NCBI RefSeq assembly: GCF_000330505.1
Contig: NW_004191835.1
Coordinates: 80,428 to 144,427 of the forward strand
Direction: 5' to 3'
Length of the DNA: 64,000 bases
From: Entamoeba invadens IP1
Lineage: Eukaryota; Evosea; Mastigamoebida; Endamoebidae
Of this stretch, positions 37,613-63,278 are shown one piece after another. Under the pieces are notes generated by a model, which saw only the letters and a program-made list of their open reading frames with translations, searched no databases and was not told where the DNA came from. How positions within the stretch are numbered: the stretch's first letter is position 1; every line of letters starts with the position of its first letter. The translations under genes were made by a program, and so were the position numbers.

Positions 37613-39934
37613 TCAATTCATTGCTACCTCCTCTAACCTCGAGTAGTTGTTTCCTGTTTCCAATGCCACATTTTTGTTCTTTCTTAACCAGCATATTGTG
37701 ACCCCAATGATTACAATAATGACTACTATAACCAATACAACAGTTATCACAGAAATGATAACGACATTCCAATCAAACTTCTTGACGTTCTCAGAACCCT
37801 CACTCGAACTATTTGACTCACTTGAAGTCGTTGAATGACCCGATTCGTCAGATTTAGACTCAGTCGAAGTGTTTGATGAGGCACTTGATGTTTCGTGTGA
37901 ACTACTTGAACTTTGCGATGGTTGTGATGAAGAGTGTGACTCCGCTTGACAGACATCCCTCACACACTTTTGATTGAAAAAGTCGAAGTAGTAGTTCTCA
38001 TCACAGTATGTGGGAACACACACTTCACTCCATCTCCCATCGTCACCACACACATACCCACCATGAGCGTGCTCAACAGTCATTTTACTGTCACACAATT
38101 CACTTCGTAAAACCAACTTTTTGTTATCTTTGTTGCATTGTGTTCTATACTTCTCTGCTACACTTTTAATTGTTCGTGCAAATTCGTTGACTCGCGTCAC
38201 GCCATAACTCCCCAAGAAAATTTGTTCGTCGACAACGTCAATCAAATACTCTCGCGGGACTTCTTCGCTGTAGTTATAGTTGTACTTGTACGTCTCTACA
38301 AATCCAAATTGCATCGAAATGCCCATCTCTGTCATTTTGTCTTTCTCCGCTTTAGGCAGCACTTCGTCAAATGTGGCAATTGCTGTTGGTGACTGTCCGA
38401 CATCGTGGTCAATTAATTTCCCTTCAGGGTCTCCAAAGTACCCAACTACAATAGCGCCGCCTTTCTCTTGTAGTCCTTTAGTCAACAATGAACACGCAGA
38501 ATAACAGAAAGCGTCGGACATTAACACAATTTCAGTCGGCTTTCTTGGATTCTTCGTCAGTAATTTGTCCAGTGTTGATGTTTTTATAATTTCCGTTTTG
38601 GATCTCATATGCTTGACATCACCATAATTAACAGTGACGGGTTCTGTATAAAATGACCCAATTGTGCTACTGTTATAACAATTCTTGCACGTTTCAGTGT
38701 CTACAAATAAGTCATTGAACCCATTTTGAAACGCTAGTACTGTGTTGTCACTTAATCTCACACTTCCATAGTTGTTCACATCGACATCATTGCTCAACGC
38801 CTTCTCTATGATACTTTCAAGGTCAAGATACCCCCCACCATTAAGCGGAAGAATGACTCCAATAGTTCCATTGTTTTCATCAAACTTTTCAAAGCAGCTT
38901 TTAATAGCAGAGATATAGTATCGTATTTCAGCTACTTCATCTGTTGAGAAACTCGATATCTTGAGTACATTCACTTTCTCGTTGTCGATGTCTAATATCT
39001 GACAATTGATAGACTCGGATACAGTTTCTTTGACACTTCTTTTCTTCCTCACTTCTGAAGACTCAAACAAATCCTTTGCGGTGATTATCTTCGCTCCAGC
39101 AGTTCTCCTCTTTTTATCGATAAATTCCTTCATTTGTGCAATCTGCAATTGTTTTGATGTTTTCTTGTTGTTATCAGTTGCCCTAATACTTCCGCCTAAA
39201 TTCATCATTTGGTAGTTCACCGATATATTAACTCCGTTTTTGTATTTAACAGTGATGGGCGTTTCTAAGTACTCTTTAGTCAGTGGAGCATAACTCATCA
39301 TAAACATCCCAAACATTTCCTTTGCATATGTGAATTTCGCGTGTTCATTTTTCATCCCAGCAAACATTTCTGCGAATGTTCTGATGTACTGGAAAGGAGT
39401 TTGACCATCGATTTCTTCAACCTCGACTTTCTCGTTCTCGACGACTTCTGGAGGCATGGTCAAGTCAAACGCGGTGATGATGTTGAGTGCTGGCAAGTAG
39501 ACTTTTTTGTCTGTTTCGATAGTCATCGTGAAAGGAAGAACAGCCGCGAAGTCTTCGATGAAGTAGTTATGTTGTGTGTTACTTTTTAGAGAGATACTGA
39601 TATGTAAGTCGTGTAAATCGAAAATAAGTCTTTGGAATTTGTAGAAGTACTCCACAAAGTTTTGTTTTCCAGTCTTTATTTCGTTGAGTCTCTCGTCGAT
39701 GTTGACTTTGTGAAAGAAGTTTGAATCGAAGTCGGGTTGTGGTGGGTTTTGAGTAATATCTTTATACACGTAAGCGTCCAATGCGTGAGTAATAGCGTTT
39801 TTAAGACTAACAGAGTCTTCTTCTGTAATAGTAATGGAATCAAAACACTCGAAAGCTTGATCTATAGTGCAGTTCACTGGAGTTTCACATGGTGAACTAA
39901 TCGCAACGAAGAGAAGAAGAAAGAGGACAATCAT
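37613..39934 (-). CDS. Membrane-anchored S41-family peptidase
   Basis: This 773-residue type I membrane protein has a signal peptide (MIVLFLLLFVAISSPC), a large extracellular part, a Ser/Glu-rich stalk (about residues 670-722), one transmembrane helix (VVIISVITVVLVIVVIIVII, about 724-749) and a short tail ending RLEEVAMN. Peptidase S41 features are the strand GTIGVILPLNGGGYLDLESI and the nucleophile region VLMSDAFCYSACSLLTKGL near residue 478 followed by GGAIVVGYFGDPEG. Cysteine-rich modules lie before the stalk (CDENYYFDFFNQKCVRDVC). Entamoeba encodes several such surface S41 proteins. It should sit on the plasma or phagosomal membrane. The stalk looks suited to O-glycosylation. No intron is seen. 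Confidence 0.82.
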   Translation of the reverse strand: MIVLFLLLFVAISSPCETPVNCTIDQAFECFDSITITEEDSVSLKNAITHALDAYVYKDITQNPPQPDFDSNFFHKVNIDERLNEIKTGKQNFVEYFYKFQRLIFDLHDLHISISLKSNTQHNYFIEDFAAVLPFTMTIETDKKVYLPALNIITAFDLTMPPEVVENEKVEVEEIDGQTPFQYIRTFAEMFAGMKNEHAKFTYAKEMFGMFMMSYAPLTKEYLETPITVKYKNGVNISVNYQMMNLGGSIRATDNNKKTSKQLQIAQMKEFIDKKRRTAGAKIITAKDLFESSEVRKKRSVKETVSESINCQILDIDNEKVNVLKISSFSTDEVAEIRYYISAIKSCFEKFDENNGTIGVILPLNGGGYLDLESIIEKALSNDVDVNNYGSVRLSDNTVLAFQNGFNDLFVDTETCKNCYNSSTIGSFYTEPVTVNYGDVKHMRSKTEIIKTSTLDKLLTKNPRKPTEIVLMSDAFCYSACSLLTKGLQEKGGAIVVGYFGDPEGKLIDHDVGQSPTAIATFDEVLPKAEKDKMTEMGISMQFGFVETYKYNYNYSEEVPREYLIDVVDEQIFLGSYGVTRVNEFARTIKSVAEKYRTQCNKDNKKLVLRSELCDSKMTVEHAHGGYVCGDDGRWSEVCVPTYCDENYYFDFFNQKCVRDVCQAESHSSSQPSQSSSSSHETSSASSNTSTESKSDESGHSTTSSESNSSSEGSENVKKFDWNVVIISVITVVLVIVVIIVIIGVTICWLRKNKNVALETGNNYSRLEEVAMN

Positions 39935-55875: not shown

Positions 55876-57063
55876 TCACAGACAATCAATATATTCTCGG
55901 CTCTCCTTTTTCGACTCTAAAATGATGACTTGTGCCAACTTGACAAGACTTCTCATTGGAAATGGTCGAGCGCGCAGGAGAGTACTCACCGGGGTTTTTG
56001 AACGCAATAACTCCTCTCTTGACAGTAAGAGTTCTGCACAGATAATATAGATGAAATACGATGGCCGTGTTGCTACTAAGAAGTCGAACAATATCACCAT
56101 CTCCTCTTTCGAATACTTTTGACTACCAAAGCTGATGTAGTGATTTGTTAGGACGGAAATTTCTTGAAAGATATGAAGAGACAAATCGAAGTCGATGTTG
56201 GTGATGATCCTCATTAACGAGATTTGCCAACAACTTTCGTCGTAAAAGTAATTTGTCATGTTCATTAAGAACGATGTGCACGCGCAAAAGGCTTGGAGCT
56301 CCTCATAGACTTCCATGAAGATATCAACGATTTGTGGGATATGTTGCACATCTTTATGCATCACTTCAAGTACATTCTGGATACAATGACACACGCGTCG
56401 GGTTTGTTCTCGGCGTTGGTCATTGCACTTAATCTCTTGCAACTCCCATTCGATGGTGTTTTCATTGCCTTGATCCAGTGTTGATCTTAAAAGAATCATA
56501 TACACCTGAGCGTTTGATGGGAGTCGTTCTAATAAAACAGACCACGTTATTGCTCTCAAAGTGTTCTGATCTGATGGTATCCCTTTCATTAACACCATTT
56601 TCCGAAGTAACTCAATGTCCCCTATTTTGGTTTGAATGACTTGTTGGACATCTAAGTCCTCAGACACGTCGACTTGGTTTATTGGAGCACTTTTTGATTG
56701 ATTGAAACTCTCGGAAATATCAAAGTCACTCAAGTCGGACAAAAAATGTGGTTTGACTTTTGGAGCCCCCTTTACGCTCGTCGGTTGTTGTGTATCAAAC
56801 GAATTCCAGTCGGAACCATCATCAAAATCAGTGATGTCACTTTTCTTCCCCAACTCTTCTTGATTTGTCGGCGCACTTTTCGAAGTTTGAAATGAATTTG
56901 ATGGCGTGGAGGTACTCGAAGAATCTAAAGGCCTTTTGGCGGTCGGGGTCACCACAATTTTTGAGTTGATAAATTTATTTGAATCAGTTTGTTTGAAACC
57001 AGTTAAACTCCAATCAAAGTCATCATCCAATTCCCCTTTATCAAAGTCACTCGCATCACACAT
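55876..57063 (-). CDS. TBC-like (Rab-GAP fold) protein, degenerate
   Basis: In this 395-residue protein the first 150 residues are disordered, with acidic-Trp motifs (DDDFDWSLTGF, DDGSDWNSFDT) and a repeated Ser-Ala-Pro-x-Asn-Gln unit (KSAPTNQEE, KSAPINQVD). From about residue 155 a helical domain resembles TBC: LRAITWSVLLERLPSNAQVY, then a region with IPQIVDIFMEVYEEL and FDFLVATRPSYFIYIICAEL. The catalytic arginine (IxxDxxR) and glutamine (YxQ) fingers are not evident, so it may bind Rab without GAP activity. No intron is seen. It converges on the Ras-like gene, 74 bases apart. Confidence 0.5.
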   Translation of the reverse strand: MCDASDFDKGELDDDFDWSLTGFKQTDSNKFINSKIVVTPTAKRPLDSSSTSTPSNSFQTSKSAPTNQEELGKKSDITDFDDGSDWNSFDTQQPTSVKGAPKVKPHFLSDLSDFDISESFNQSKSAPINQVDVSEDLDVQQVIQTKIGDIELLRKMVLMKGIPSDQNTLRAITWSVLLERLPSNAQVYMILLRSTLDQGNENTIEWELQEIKCNDQRREQTRRVCHCIQNVLEVMHKDVQHIPQIVDIFMEVYEELQAFCACTSFLMNMTNYFYDESCWQISLMRIITNIDFDLSLHIFQEISVLTNHYISFGSQKYSKEEMVILFDFLVATRPSYFIYIICAELLLSREELLRSKTPVSTLLRARPFPMRSLVKLAQVIILESKKESREYIDCL

Positions 57064-57264
57064 AATGCGATTATATACATTTTTTCAAGTTAAGTTCGAT
57101 TGACTCTTCGAATATAAAATGTATTATATTTTATAGTTATTTTAATTATATTCATATTGGTGCTTTAAAAAAAATATTTAAAACAAAAAGAGAAAAAAAA
57201 CGAAAAATTGTATTAATGTTAATAATTTTTGATATTAGTATTGTATAGCTTGTTATTATAATTA

Positions 57265-57272
57265 AATGATAT
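57265..57272. repeat. Target-site duplication, left copy
   Basis: AATGATAT immediately precedes the left terminus TAGTGCTTCGCAG. The identical 8 bp follow the right terminus at 63271-63278. An 8-bp duplication is the hAT-superfamily length. Confidence 0.93.
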
Positions 57273-57335
57273 TAGTGCTTCGCAGTTTGTGAACTGAAGT
57301 TTTTTTCTATTTTTTTTCAAACTGAAAAAAAACAC
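57273..57335. repeat. hAT terminal inverted repeat, left
   Basis: The first 15 bases TAGTGCTTCGCAGTT match the reverse complement of the right end exactly. The next 45 align imperfectly through AACTGAA, a long T-run and a CTGAAAAAA stretch. Confidence 0.88.
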
Positions 57336-58232
57336 ATTTTAGAATTTAATTATTTGTAATAGCTTTATCTCCACTTTTGGGATTAATTTATTTAAACACA
57401 ATTATTAAGAAACATAATCATAAACTGTAAAACAAAATCAAATTTGAAAAAGATAAAGAAAAAACCCAAAACTTTGAATATTTTTTAGTTTTTGATAAAA
57501 AAAACAAAATTTGACCAAAAATGCATATTTTGAAAAAAAATATAAATACAAAAAACAATGAAAAAACAAATAATACCAATGACCATAAGTTTTAATTATA
57601 TCAAAAAACACAATTTTATATTTAATACTTTGGTAATTGTGTATTGTTTGACTTATTAAATTTTTGTTATTTTATCGCAAATCTGAATGCTCATATAATT
57701 AATAATAATCATAATCTTTAAACAAACTGATTATCAAATTTAATGTTATTATTATGTATTCAAATTAACAAAATATAGTTCAAATTTCAATGAATAGTTT
57801 TAATTAACACTTAAATGGCTTAAAGAAATTTTTTTGAAGGCAAGGAAAAAAAAGACATAGACGCCAATTTAAAAAAAGTACTTAAAACAACCCATGTCCC
57901 TTTTGGGACATAATCTTACTCAAAAAAAGTATAAATGTTAACTCGATTATATAAGATTTTGCATTATTTTTTCAAAAATACACTTTTCTCTCAAATTCTT
58001 TGATAACGATTATACTATACTCATTTCTATTATTTATTACTATGTATCACTTGTGTCGGTTTTCATTCAAACCAACGTGTATACATAGTGACATTATCAT
58101 ACTCAAACATACTTATTTGATTCTCAAGTTAATTAATGTTCTAACTTTATTTTTTCAGTTGCCAAATGAAAATCATTTAGAAAAAATTCAGAATAAAAAT
58201 ATATTTTTAAAAGTCACTTATTTTAGAAACTA

Positions 58233-59812
58233 TTATTTTTTCTTGGGGTTTTTGCATTTTGGGCACAAGAAAAGTGAGTGTTTAGTGCACACTGGAAGAC
58301 CACAAGATTCACATATTCTTTTTGTTCGAGCCTTTTCAACTTTCTTGCAAAAAGCACAAAATCTCTTTTTGGCAACTGTTAGTGATTTTTTTTCTTTGGA
58401 ATTTGTTATAATTTTGTTTTTCCCAACAACGTCTTCCCACCATTTTTGAAGTCCACACTCAACAAACAGCTGTCTTTTTTCTTCTCCTTTTTTCATCCCT
58501 CGATCAAGCCTTCTTTTAACGTAATTCTCACACATTTGTTCAGACAATTTAATTAAAAAATCAAAATGAGACATTTTTGTTTTTTCAAACATGGCATAGG
58601 CATTAGTGCAGCAACAATCCAGGATATTTTGAACAATTGCCAAATTGTATCTTCTCGTTTTCATTTTGCACGAATACTCTTGGCAAAGTTGATCAAAAGT
58701 ATCAACTGGAGTTTTTGTATAATTGTAAGCCACATTTATTGAAGATTTTCCACTTCGACTGTCAATCAATGGAATTTGAATTTTATTGGTAACAATAATG
58801 ACAGTTTTGCTTTTGTTTGGGTTAAAAGCAGTCAAAAGAATGTTCCCTTTTGAATAAAAGCGTGTATTTTTGGGATTTTTTTCTTTTTCTTCTTCTAATT
58901 TCATTTTTTCTTCTTTAATTTCAATCTTTTCTAAATTTAAGAATTTTTGGGAAGATAGAATTTTTTCAGCTTTTTCTTTGTATTTTTCCCTTTTTGTTCG
59001 GTTTTTTGGCTCAGCTGGACCAATTTCCCCAAGTTTAAAAAAAATTTTGTCCCATTCCTCCTCAATTTTCGCAATCGATTTTTTGTTTTTCTTTTCCATT
59101 TTTTGTACTTTCCTTTCTTTNNNNNNNNNNNNNNNNNNNNNNNNNNNNNNNNNNNNNNNNNNNNNNNNNNNNNNNNNNNNNNNNNNNNNNNNNNNNNNNN
59201 NNNNNNNNNNNNNNNNNNNNATTTCTTTTGCTGCTGAAAAATTGGTTTTTTCCCTTTTTTGATCTCTTTCATTTTTTTGTCGCACCGGAAACATCGAAAC
59301 AATTCTTTGAATCTATCTCGCTTCATGCCTATTCTTAAAAATATAATCCCGAATTTGTGGCTCCAAAGGCGATCAACGTTTCCCCTTCTTTGGTTTGCCC
59401 CAATATAAATCAAAATGCCAAGAAAACATTCAATTTCTTCGAAATCAGTTGGGATCCATTTCCCGTTAATTAGTTCTTCTGCCTTTTCATTTGTACCTTC
59501 AACAATTAATTCAATCATTTCATTTGAAAACATTTTTCTAAAACATTCCAAAGGAGATTTGAAATCTTCAGAAAAAACGGTTTTCGAAAAATTTTCTTTT
59601 TCACAAAACTTTTGAAAATCAAAAATCCCAAGTTTTGGTTCGATTTTTGACCATCCATCCAAATAATCATCTTTTTCTTCAAAAAAACATTCTTCTTCTT
59701 CATTTTCTATTTTTTGATCATATTCTTCAACATTATTTTCACAAAAAAATGGATCATTACTTTCGTCATCACTTGATATTAAACAATCATCTTGTTGGTA
59801 TTCACACTCCAT
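58233..59812 (-). CDS. piggyBac-family transposase, interrupted by assembly gap
   Basis: The N-terminal part (from ATG 59812) is acidic (DDCLISSDDESNDPFF) and continues into the DDE_Tnp_1_7 region (ECFLGILIYIGANQRRGNVDRLWS, then MKRDRFKELFRCFRCD). After 100 unknown bases the frame resumes with a long charged segment, NVAYNYTKTPVDTFDQLCQEY (the third conserved Asp block, usually GGVDxxDq), and a C-terminal cysteine-rich zinc domain (CAFCKK...CESCGLPVCTKH...CPKC) typical of piggyBac. The two sides of the gap are in different frames, as expected if the gap length is arbitrary. The region expected to carry the first two catalytic aspartates lies in or beside the gap. Activity cannot be judged. 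Confidence 0.85.
59121..59220. other. Assembly gap (100 N)
   Basis: Exactly 100 unknown bases lie inside the piggyBac transposase gene. The round length suggests a placeholder of unknown true size, as often occurs where repeats break assembly. Confidence 0.98.
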
Positions 59813-59899
59813 GAATTGAAAAAAAAAGAACAAAAAGGCAAAAAAATAATAATGGTAAAATTTTGTTTATGTATGTCCATTAAGGAAAGGTTCAGCCAA

Positions 59900-62583
59900 T
59901 TAAGTGTTAATAATCGGTGGGTCTTTATTGTTTAAGTCTAGATCATAAAGATTAAAATTTTTGCCAAATTCGTGAAGAAAAACCAGCTCTTCCAAGTGTA
60001 TCGGGGTTAATGAACATCTTCGTTTTGTTTTGATCAGAGAGCACTGAGAAAACAATCGCTCAGATGATGATGATGAAGCGAGAAGACAAAGATATTTATT
60101 AACAAGTCTGGTTAAAAGTGGAAACGATTTTGTGTTGTTTCTCCACCACACAAGAGGATTTTTTGCGTTCGGATCAAGACTGTTTTTGTGGAGTATTGGT
60201 ATTTGCAAGTATGTATTTATCTCTTTTTTGGCTTCAAGGCACAAATCTTTTTCATTGTAATACACCATTTCATCATCATTTTCACTACTAAACTGAAAAA
60301 TGTTTTCAAGAGAGTGTGTTGTTTGAGAAGCACGTTCCTTGGTAATAAGTCTGTCTTTATTCAATTTCACCACCTCGTTTAATAAAAGTGTTTCATATTG
60401 AACTTCTCCAAAAGAGACTCTTAATCCTGACATATTCACATCAAATGATTGAAACCCACGAATTTTATAACATGGGTTTAATAGCGCAGATAAAATGTAA
60501 ACGGGGTCTTTCATTATATTTCTTTTGGTTCCAAGAAAACGCTCGATGATTTGGTCAACAATGTTAATTATGTACAATTTAAGTGCATGGTTAGGAGTTT
60601 CCATCTGAAAATCACAAAACCCATAATTGGATTTTGGCAAACTACTTTGTTGTAAGTGTTGTTCAGATACAAATCCATTGGTCGTTGATCCAACAATTGG
60701 AAATGTTTCCACTTCATCGTAAAAATAATGCCGTTCATTTGATTGGGTTTTTACATAGGCGAAGTTAATATGATCATTCAAATTACAACTATCTCGTGTT
60801 TGTCTTAAAATACGAGCTGGATAATCTAGATCGGTTGCTTTAGTGTCATCATCTTCAATTATATTATATCGATTCTTTAATAAAGTGATTAAATGGACAA
60901 CTGTATAAATAACCTGAGAAAGTGTTGGATAAGAATCAGAGCTAAATCTATTTATTATGAAATTGATGTATTTCGAAATATCGATATAATTTCTCATATC
61001 AACAATATCATTTAAGGAAAGTTCATATGTTTGTAAAAAAATAGTTTTTTAAACTAAATTTGAAATTTCATTGGCTTTTTTTTCAATTGCGGTGTTTATA
61101 TATTTTGCAAGAAGACACACTCTATTAATCATTAAATACTCTCCAAACCAACGAGTATCACCCGGTTTCACAAGTTCTAACGGCCTTGTAATGTGATCTT
61201 TTAGCTGAGCATCTTCCATTTCTTTGGATAACAACACACTTTGACTGAATAAAGTTACCAATTTTTTGACTCGACTTATAAGAATTTTATATCTTACGAC
61301 ATCTTCTGTTGCTTGATTAGCTATCAAATTGAAGGTGTGACAACAACACCCAATAGATTGTTTTCCACTGTTTTTTACCGCGTTTAATTCGCTTGCAGCG
61401 TTGTCTGTAATTACATAAAAATTACCTTTAAGTCCCCAACAATCAAACATTGAAGTTAAATTATCACCAAGAAAAGCTCCTGTTTTTGTCTTTTCATCAA
61501 GTTGTTTTAATTCTAATATAAGAGACTTCAAATTGTATCTTTCGTCTAAATAATGAATTGTCAAAGAGACAAATTCTTGTTTGCACATAAAAGTGCACCA
61601 ACCATCAGTTGTACAACAAAAATACACCAAAGGTAATACAAGTTGGTGTAATTTTGTTTTTGCCGCTCTAAACATTTTTGGTACAATAGTCCTTGAAATA
61701 ACATCCGAAGAAGGGATGCTCAAATCAGGACGTATACTATGAACGAAGTCGACAAAGGCCCGACTTTCAACATGTTCAAAACTAAGTTCAGATGACACTA
61801 TATAACATCCGATTTTTAAATTAAGATCACTTACTTTTTTGGTCGATTCAATTGTTGGATTTTTCATTTTTAATTGATCATCGTGTATAGTTATATGTTT
61901 CTTCATATCTGTGACACTTTCACTTGTCGTATCAAATGAATAATATTGACCACAATAATCACACACCAAAAGATAATATTTGTCAGATAACACAACGAAC
62001 TTGGGTTTTTTCCCGTCCTTTCCTTTTGGTAAAACACCACAAAGAGAGTTTGTGTTTTTGTCAACCACCCAGATCGAACATCTTTTCCAGACATCTTCAG
62101 CAATAACAAAATGTTCTCTTGTTGGTGGAAGTTTCAGTTTCATTGAGTCATCAACACTTGTATAAGGATTTTTACGTTTTGGTGGTTTTACTATTATAAG
62201 TTCTTTTTATCATCAACATCCAAATGATCTTCAACCTTTTTTGGAGATTTTTTTGTTAATTTCTTTGTAGGTTCTGGACTCGTTGGCCATAACACATCTT
62301 TTTGTATTGGATTTTCATGAGTTATTAACGATGTGATTGTTTGTTTTTTATGTGAATTTTTTGTTTCTATTGTATTTGGTTGTTTTTGTGTAACAAAATG
62401 TATCGGAAAAGTGTTTATAGTATTTTTTGGTGAATGATTGACAAATGAATTACTAGTTGTTTTTATTTCTGTCTCGTCATTGTAAACAACTGTATTATTA
62501 TCAGGAGGCTTTCCTTTGTTTGAACAAAGTTTAGGAATTGTTGTAAAACTCCGAGGTAAAGATAATTGTAAGTGTTTAGACAT
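59900..62583 (-). pseudogene. hAT transposase with BED finger, two lesions
   Basis: Three consecutive open segments (62583-62194, about 62190-61049, 60997-59900) form one transposase of nearly 900 residues. The first is a Lys/Pro/Thr-rich leader. The second has a BED-type finger (YYLLVCDYCGQYYSF...HITIHD) and RNase-H-like blocks CCTTDGWCTFMCKQEF and VITDNAASELNAV, then CCCHTFNLIANQA. The third carries the hAT dimerisation end: NPLVWWRNNTKSFPLLTRLV and SSSSERLFSQCSLIKTKRR. Two lesions separate the segments: a one-base shortfall consistent with the run of five A (T on the plus strand, 62204-62208), and a single in-frame TAA at 61051-61049. Few other defects are visible, so inactivation is recent, or one or both lesions are sequencing errors. 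Confidence 0.87.
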
Positions 62584-63207
62584 TGTGTTTATATTTTGTT
62601 ATTTTTTGTTTTTGTATGTGTTACAAGTTACACTAACTCATATACAACTCAACACCACGATGCAACTTTTTAAATGATTAAATATTAATTATTAAATATT
62701 ATAATGTTAAAATTATTTTTAATTATGTGTCAACACATTAAAAAGTTAAGTTGCTCAAAAAATCATTCGTATTCGATTATTTGTTTTTTATCATGTTATG
62801 TTTAACTCTTATTTTATAATTATTAATGTAATGTATTAGAACTTGTAAAGATGCTAATGAGATGTCGCAGTATCATGTTTTAAATTGTTGAACTGAACAA
62901 TTTAAAGATGTGTTTTATTCAAAAAATAAAGTCCATTTTTTAATTAATACATTTTTGTTTTTTAATTTAATATTTTTTGTTAAACTACTTTTTGGTTCAA
63001 AATTTTTAGTTCTTTCAATTTTTATATTGTTGTATACACGTTTTCAGTTAATCATATTATAGACAATGTTGATGTAATTGGTTTCAAAAGTGCGATTTCG
63101 GTAAATCTATCTTATACGGCTCCCATTTATTTTTTCCTAATTGTTGTCTTATATAAAAAGAAAAAAAAGCAATTTGATAAAACCCTTTTCACATTATTTT
63201 AAACAAT

Positions 63208-63270
63208 GATTAAGTCTTTTTTCAGGAAAAAAAATCAGTTAAAATTCAGTTAAATAACTGCGAAGCACTA
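63208..63270. repeat. hAT terminal inverted repeat, right
   Basis: Ends ...AACTGCGAAGCACTA, the exact reverse complement of the left 15-bp terminus. The inner part has matching CAGTTAAA and A-run segments. Confidence 0.88.
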
Positions 63271-63278
63271 AATGATAT
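63271..63278. repeat. Target-site duplication, right copy
   Basis: AATGATAT, identical to 57265-57272. Confidence 0.93.

Follow-up and report, generated by a model that had tools for sequence, protein, structure and literature searches.

The stretch of DNA analysed here, a window of 64,000 nucleotides from Entamoeba invadens IP1, raises a question of both identity and order: does it hold a hAT transposon with a piggyBac element inside it, and if so, which of the two came first? Overall, we believe it very probable that a hAT element entered AATGATAT, and that a piggyBac of a young family later entered the TTAA at the hAT stop codon. On this model the hAT would have inserted by cut-and-paste, duplicating 8 bp; a piggyBac from a family of near-identical copies would later have used as its target the TTAA where the hAT transposase reading frame terminates, and this TTAA would have been duplicated in turn. 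The model draws on the ends and target duplications of both elements, the homology of their transposases, siblings of each, and an empty site in relatives, all of which are directly observed; points against it include the three of nine paired hAT copies that lack a duplication, and a 100-N gap in the piggyBac.

The hAT element and its relatives

The hAT element occupies 57273..63270 (5998 bases as assembled, with the transposase on the minus strand), beginning at 57273 with TAGTGCTTCGCAGTT, the inverted copy of which ends at 63270. Its terminal inverted repeats, 57273..57287 on the plus strand and 63256..63270 on the minus strand, are perfectly inverted over the first 15 bases and weaker to about 45 bp, over which identity is 78%, so that the end alignment proposed in the original prediction bears out the boundaries given there. 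Among perfect 15-mer inverted pairs 1-8 kb apart in the whole window, these ends are the sole pair; it appears once as 57272/63271 and once, a base further in, as 57273/63270, the register that has an exact 8-bp repeat outside. That repeat, AATGATAT, stands at 57265..57272 on the left and at 63271..63278 on the right, an exact match as had been claimed, and chance identity of 8-mers between the flanks, estimated from 2.3 kb to the left of the element against 0.7 kb to the right, amounts to 119 of 1,613,755 pairs, or 7e-5. The element has two of the features that mark membership of the hAT superfamily: short terminal inverted repeats common to its copies, and an 8-bp duplication.

Copies with the same termini are present elsewhere in the genome, of which 35.0 Mb in 233 contigs was searched; the end searches score only the best candidates, so the counts from them are lower bounds. 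The left end returned at least 16 matches, comprising the window end, the element's own other end and 14 others. The TAGTG end motif, accepted if no more than 2 of 12 bases mismatched, falls at the predicted base in 13 of the 14 other left-end matches listed and likewise in 13 of the 14 other right-end matches listed; the left-end miss (L024) has an N at a motif position, and the right-end miss (L027) is a match stopping short of the end. Across the genome the end motif occurs 27 times with at most 1 mismatch, the two in the window element included, versus once for a reversed control. Nine copies, counting the one in the window, have both ends. Four of these (the window copy, L013, L017 and L018) carry 8/8 duplications of four different sequences, and two (L009 and L011) match at 7 of 8 positions. 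The remaining three (L012, L019 and L020/L021) match at 3-4 of 8, which amounts to no duplication, and the last of these pairings, across 11.8 kb, is perhaps mistaken. The same 8 bp recurring at unrelated sites, which had been named beforehand as a reason to doubt a target duplication, was not seen: AATGATAT lies beside either end in none of the 8 other paired copies.

Several of these relatives have histories of their own. The left ends of L010 and L016 share 14 identical bases of flank, and the two may be one insertion later duplicated with its surroundings. L009, L011, L012 and L019 share with the hAT a left arm of about 260-320 bp and a right arm of about 310-330 bp, the latter being split by inserts in L009, but their middles are unrelated or only 71-75% similar to it; at 2225-2233 bases, L011, L012 and L019 likely form a non-autonomous hAT subfamily. 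L017 and L018 are internally deleted derivatives without the part corresponding to window 57590-61600, and are uninformative on the piggyBac site.

The transposase gene of the hAT lies on the minus strand in three parts: an N-terminal open frame (62194..62598) in a different frame from the other two, a catalytic part (61049..62206) closed by an in-frame TAA (61049-61051), and a C-terminal part with the dimerisation domain (59900..61048), the present stop codon of which is within the piggyBac end. The last two parts, 62206-61049 and 61048-59900, are one frame split by the TAA. The hAT transposase predicted inside the element is confirmed by Pfam, which finds Dimer_Tnp_hAT (PF05699) in the C-terminal part with E 7.6e-17. 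Hermes (PDB 6dww and 2bw3) is matched by the middle frame, in its catalytic part, and by the last, at its C-terminus, in both cases remotely (E 3.8e-06 and 1.8e-07). This alignment shows RNase-H-like catalytic blocks of Hermes type around the first two aspartates, around a C..H pair and around a glutamate in the C-terminal part, the two D and the E presumably being the catalytic residues. Pfam assigns no family to 61049-62206 or to the N-terminal frame, and the catalytic part, searched against a set of 5.8 billion proteins, gave no match at E 0.001 among 1721 candidates. The only close relatives found for it within the genome are fragments, in L018 (87% identity over 213 residues) and L017 (77-84%), and the rest of its 38 matches are at most 50% identical.

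As assembled, the gene is no intact single frame, broken as it is by the TAA at 61049-61051 and by a frame break near 62200, and introns or sequencing errors are possible sources of the interruption. Alignment of four copies near 62200 shows several short indels between them, the majority within runs of A; a programmed frameshift and an intron were considered there, and we make no claim because a low-coverage sequencing error is inseparable from a real change. The gene differs from L018 by 10 synonymous and 21 non-synonymous changes and from L017 by 14 and 19, which suggests weak or no constraint between the window copy and these two, both internally deleted. Because its gene is interrupted, this copy would now need transposase from elsewhere. 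The element had been described as complete, a term that holds for its ends but not for its gene.

The piggyBac element and its family

The piggyBac element lies on the minus strand at 57808..59906 (2099 bases as assembled, including the 100-N gap), with ends CACTTAAATGGC and GCCAATTAAGTG and TTAA target duplications at 57804..57807 and 59907..59910, so that the junctions read TTAA-CACTTAAATGGC on the left and GCCAATTAAGTG-TTAA on the right. The first 12 bp of the two ends agree as inverted repeats with 1 mismatch. The gap, at 59121..59220, stands for about 420 bases in siblings, and the middle of the element is unseen. Open frames for the 5' part of the transposase (58937..59866, DDE_Tnp_1_7 positions 1-97) and the 3' part (58233..59312, positions 248-349 and a cysteine-rich tail), both on the minus strand, retain this Pfam family on either side of the gap (E 7.8e-21 and 5.5e-07), and the presence of a piggyBac inside the hAT, as originally predicted, is thereby upheld. 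Insect piggyBac has CCC-type ends, and differs in this from the window element, the ends of which are CACTTAA.

Six near-identical copies lie elsewhere in the genome, with 98.0-100% identity per arm, and each shares the ends of the window element and is flanked on both sides by TTAA. Their matches start at window 57803/57804 (17 bases earlier in L032) and stop at 59910-59914. Five of the six are full-length, at 2412-2421 bases, and the sixth (L034) has a 100-N gap of its own and measures 2133 bases as assembled. The smallest counts of substitutions against the window element, indels uncounted, are 2 in 1998 bases (L029), 2 in 1997 (L031) and 3 in 1997 (L030). DDE_Tnp_1_7 was found in all three siblings scanned, out of the six (E 1.6e-37 to 2.3e-55). 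The longest stop-free stretches in the five full-length siblings, at 226-417 residues, point to broken frames, whether real or from low coverage. Because the copies are almost identical, the nearest at 2 substitutions in 1998 bases, their sequences mark this as a recently active family. More distant matches are also present, 11 of the 18 listed having 68-85% identity, and some other loci fetched contain N stretches longer than 100.

The terminal sequence TTAACACTTAANTGGC occurs 65 times in the genome with at most 1 mismatch, the two in the window element included, versus 3 times for a reversed control. Among these matches are eleven inverted piggyBac-type end pairs 0.98-1.12 kb apart, probably a non-autonomous family for the same kind of transposase, since this spacing is too short for a 2.4-kb element. 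Near another hAT left end, L016:5422-7371 (minus strand) holds a different piggyBac-type gene, an uninterrupted frame of 650 residues in which the DDE_Tnp_1_7 domain is almost entire (E 3.7e-32).

Both superfamilies have been described in this organism. In Table 1 of PMC2657916, hAT elements (Chapka) and piggyBac elements (leapFrog) are both entered for E. invadens, and neither is entered for E. histolytica or E. dispar. The window elements are compared with these by description. The hAT resembles Chapka and its superfamily in its 8-bp duplication, short terminal inverted repeats, dimerisation domain and Hermes-like catalytic blocks, and differs in its foreign insertion and interrupted gene; the piggyBac resembles leapFrog and its superfamily in its TTAA target, its DDE_Tnp_1_7 transposase and its cysteine-rich C-terminal tail. 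A description of a hAT/piggyBac nest was not found in those literature titles and opening parts of abstracts that were covered, which is not proof that none has been published, and the word "nested" is absent from the main text of PMC2657916.

Order of the two insertions

The insertion point of the piggyBac is the TTAA at the stop codon and last codons of the hAT transposase gene. The original prediction had placed the piggyBac between the hAT coding region and the left end, which is correct only in part: it stands not in a free stretch but at the last hAT codons themselves, and the hAT frame now runs into the piggyBac terminus before it stops, which lengthens it by one residue relative to the uninterrupted flank. 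Consider, then, the hAT as it would read without its guest. Once a script had removed the piggyBac together with one TTAA, the joined flanks aligned as one stretch to eight hAT relatives (L009, L011, L012, L014, L019, L021, L024 and L025) at 71-75% identity. The join reads as a single TTAA in six of them and differs from it by one base in each of L012 and L014. L013 gives one more match, over 23 bases next to the join, but does not reach across it. Because eight relatives read across the join, the piggyBac site was hAT sequence beforehand, and these relatives supply the hAT copy lacking the piggyBac segment that had been sought. The empty TTAA site is read in these 71-75% identical relatives and in no near-identical hAT copy; the nearest hAT sibling by DNA, L022, which differs by substitution at 6 of 1073 bases, all in the right arm (indels uncounted), reads N over the part holding the piggyBac site. 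The length of this unread stretch was set aside as evidence for an empty sibling, since it may not be that of a sized gap.

As judged from sequence comparison, with TTAA flanking the piggyBac and eight relatives uninterrupted, it is secure that a piggyBac entered a hAT, and with it the relative order of the two elements. The sibling distances, 2 substitutions in 1998 bases for the piggyBac and 6 in 1073 for the hAT, fit the same order, few as these substitutions are. The predicted sequence of events, hAT first and piggyBac second, thus holds as a relative order of elements; the catalytic steps are inferred in addition, and so is the presence of the hAT at AATGATAT by the time of the piggyBac insertion.

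This last point matters for an alternative in which the piggyBac entered the hAT elsewhere, after which the hAT moved to this locus as a single unit with the piggyBac inside it. Were this so, the 8-bp duplication would be younger than the TTAA duplication at this locus, and one superfamily would be spreading inside another, the piggyBac carried by hAT ends. A perfect hAT duplication and identical 15-bp ends make recent movement possible, and in cut-and-paste transposition a donor copy need not remain, which counts in favour of a travelling composite. Against it, a second composite was not found: the flanks of the six piggyBac siblings (about 650-770 bases on each side) have no match to the window hAT, and the window piggyBac is absent from the other hAT copies retrieved, as far as these can be read. 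The interrupted transposase gene would also require help in trans. We consider such a journey unlikely, and prefer insertion of the piggyBac into a hAT already resident at this site.

It is highly improbable that the join is an assembly artefact, in which two repeats were stitched together across the 100-N gap. The gap does lie within the piggyBac, and both elements are repeats. Both junctions, however, are outside the gap and at an exact TTAA, the outer flanks are contiguous in eight relatives, and a misjoin would require two hAT copies, each with a piggyBac at the same TTAA. Finally, that the piggyBac is simply part of the hAT, as cargo or as one half of a two-transposase composite family, can hardly be entertained: both genes do lie in one element and on one strand, but the piggyBac is bounded by ends and TTAA duplications of its own, its six siblings sit at sites without a match to the window hAT, and the corresponding site is free of it in eight hAT relatives.

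The nest in its genomic setting

Insertion of other elements is seen repeatedly in this hAT family. One hAT copy holds a 4-kb insert (L018:2007-6054) with TATAGGGGTCATATAAATTG ends, a DDE_1 transposase and TA at its ends. The hAT copy at L009 is interrupted by two further inserts, one with a 9-bp overlap of hAT sequence and one at TA, with nested insertion recorded at L009:2842-5690. As regards the piggyBac family, both flanks of each of L033 and L034 match stretches of L023 located over 2 kb past its hAT end. By this match, these two piggyBacs sit in other repeated sequence, and the L023 copies without piggyBac read as two more empty sites.

For the E. invadens genome, a G+C content of 30% and gaps represented by 100 N are described (PMC4053983), and the window agrees with this description. 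A protein encoded elsewhere in the window (37613-39931, minus strand) matches 18 proteins: itself, nine named ones that all belong to Entamoeba, and eight unnamed. The best identities by species are 41% in E. nuttalli, 40% in E. histolytica, 39% in E. marina and 39% in E. dispar. To the left of the nest in the window lies a 395-residue open frame (55876-57063, minus strand) that starts 210 bases from the hAT left end; the hAT probably sits on its promoter side. Pfam gives no match for this neighbouring frame (55876-57084).

Nested insertions are commonplace in repeat-rich genomes. Because the hAT copies at L018 and L009 are also interrupted by other elements, the nest in the window is one of several in the same hAT family, and in that sense ordinary. 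Its practical use lies in the exact ends that it provides for one hAT and one piggyBac family in Entamoeba, and in the relative order of the two at one locus. It is an ordinary but unusually clean and well-documented case of one mobile element inside another.
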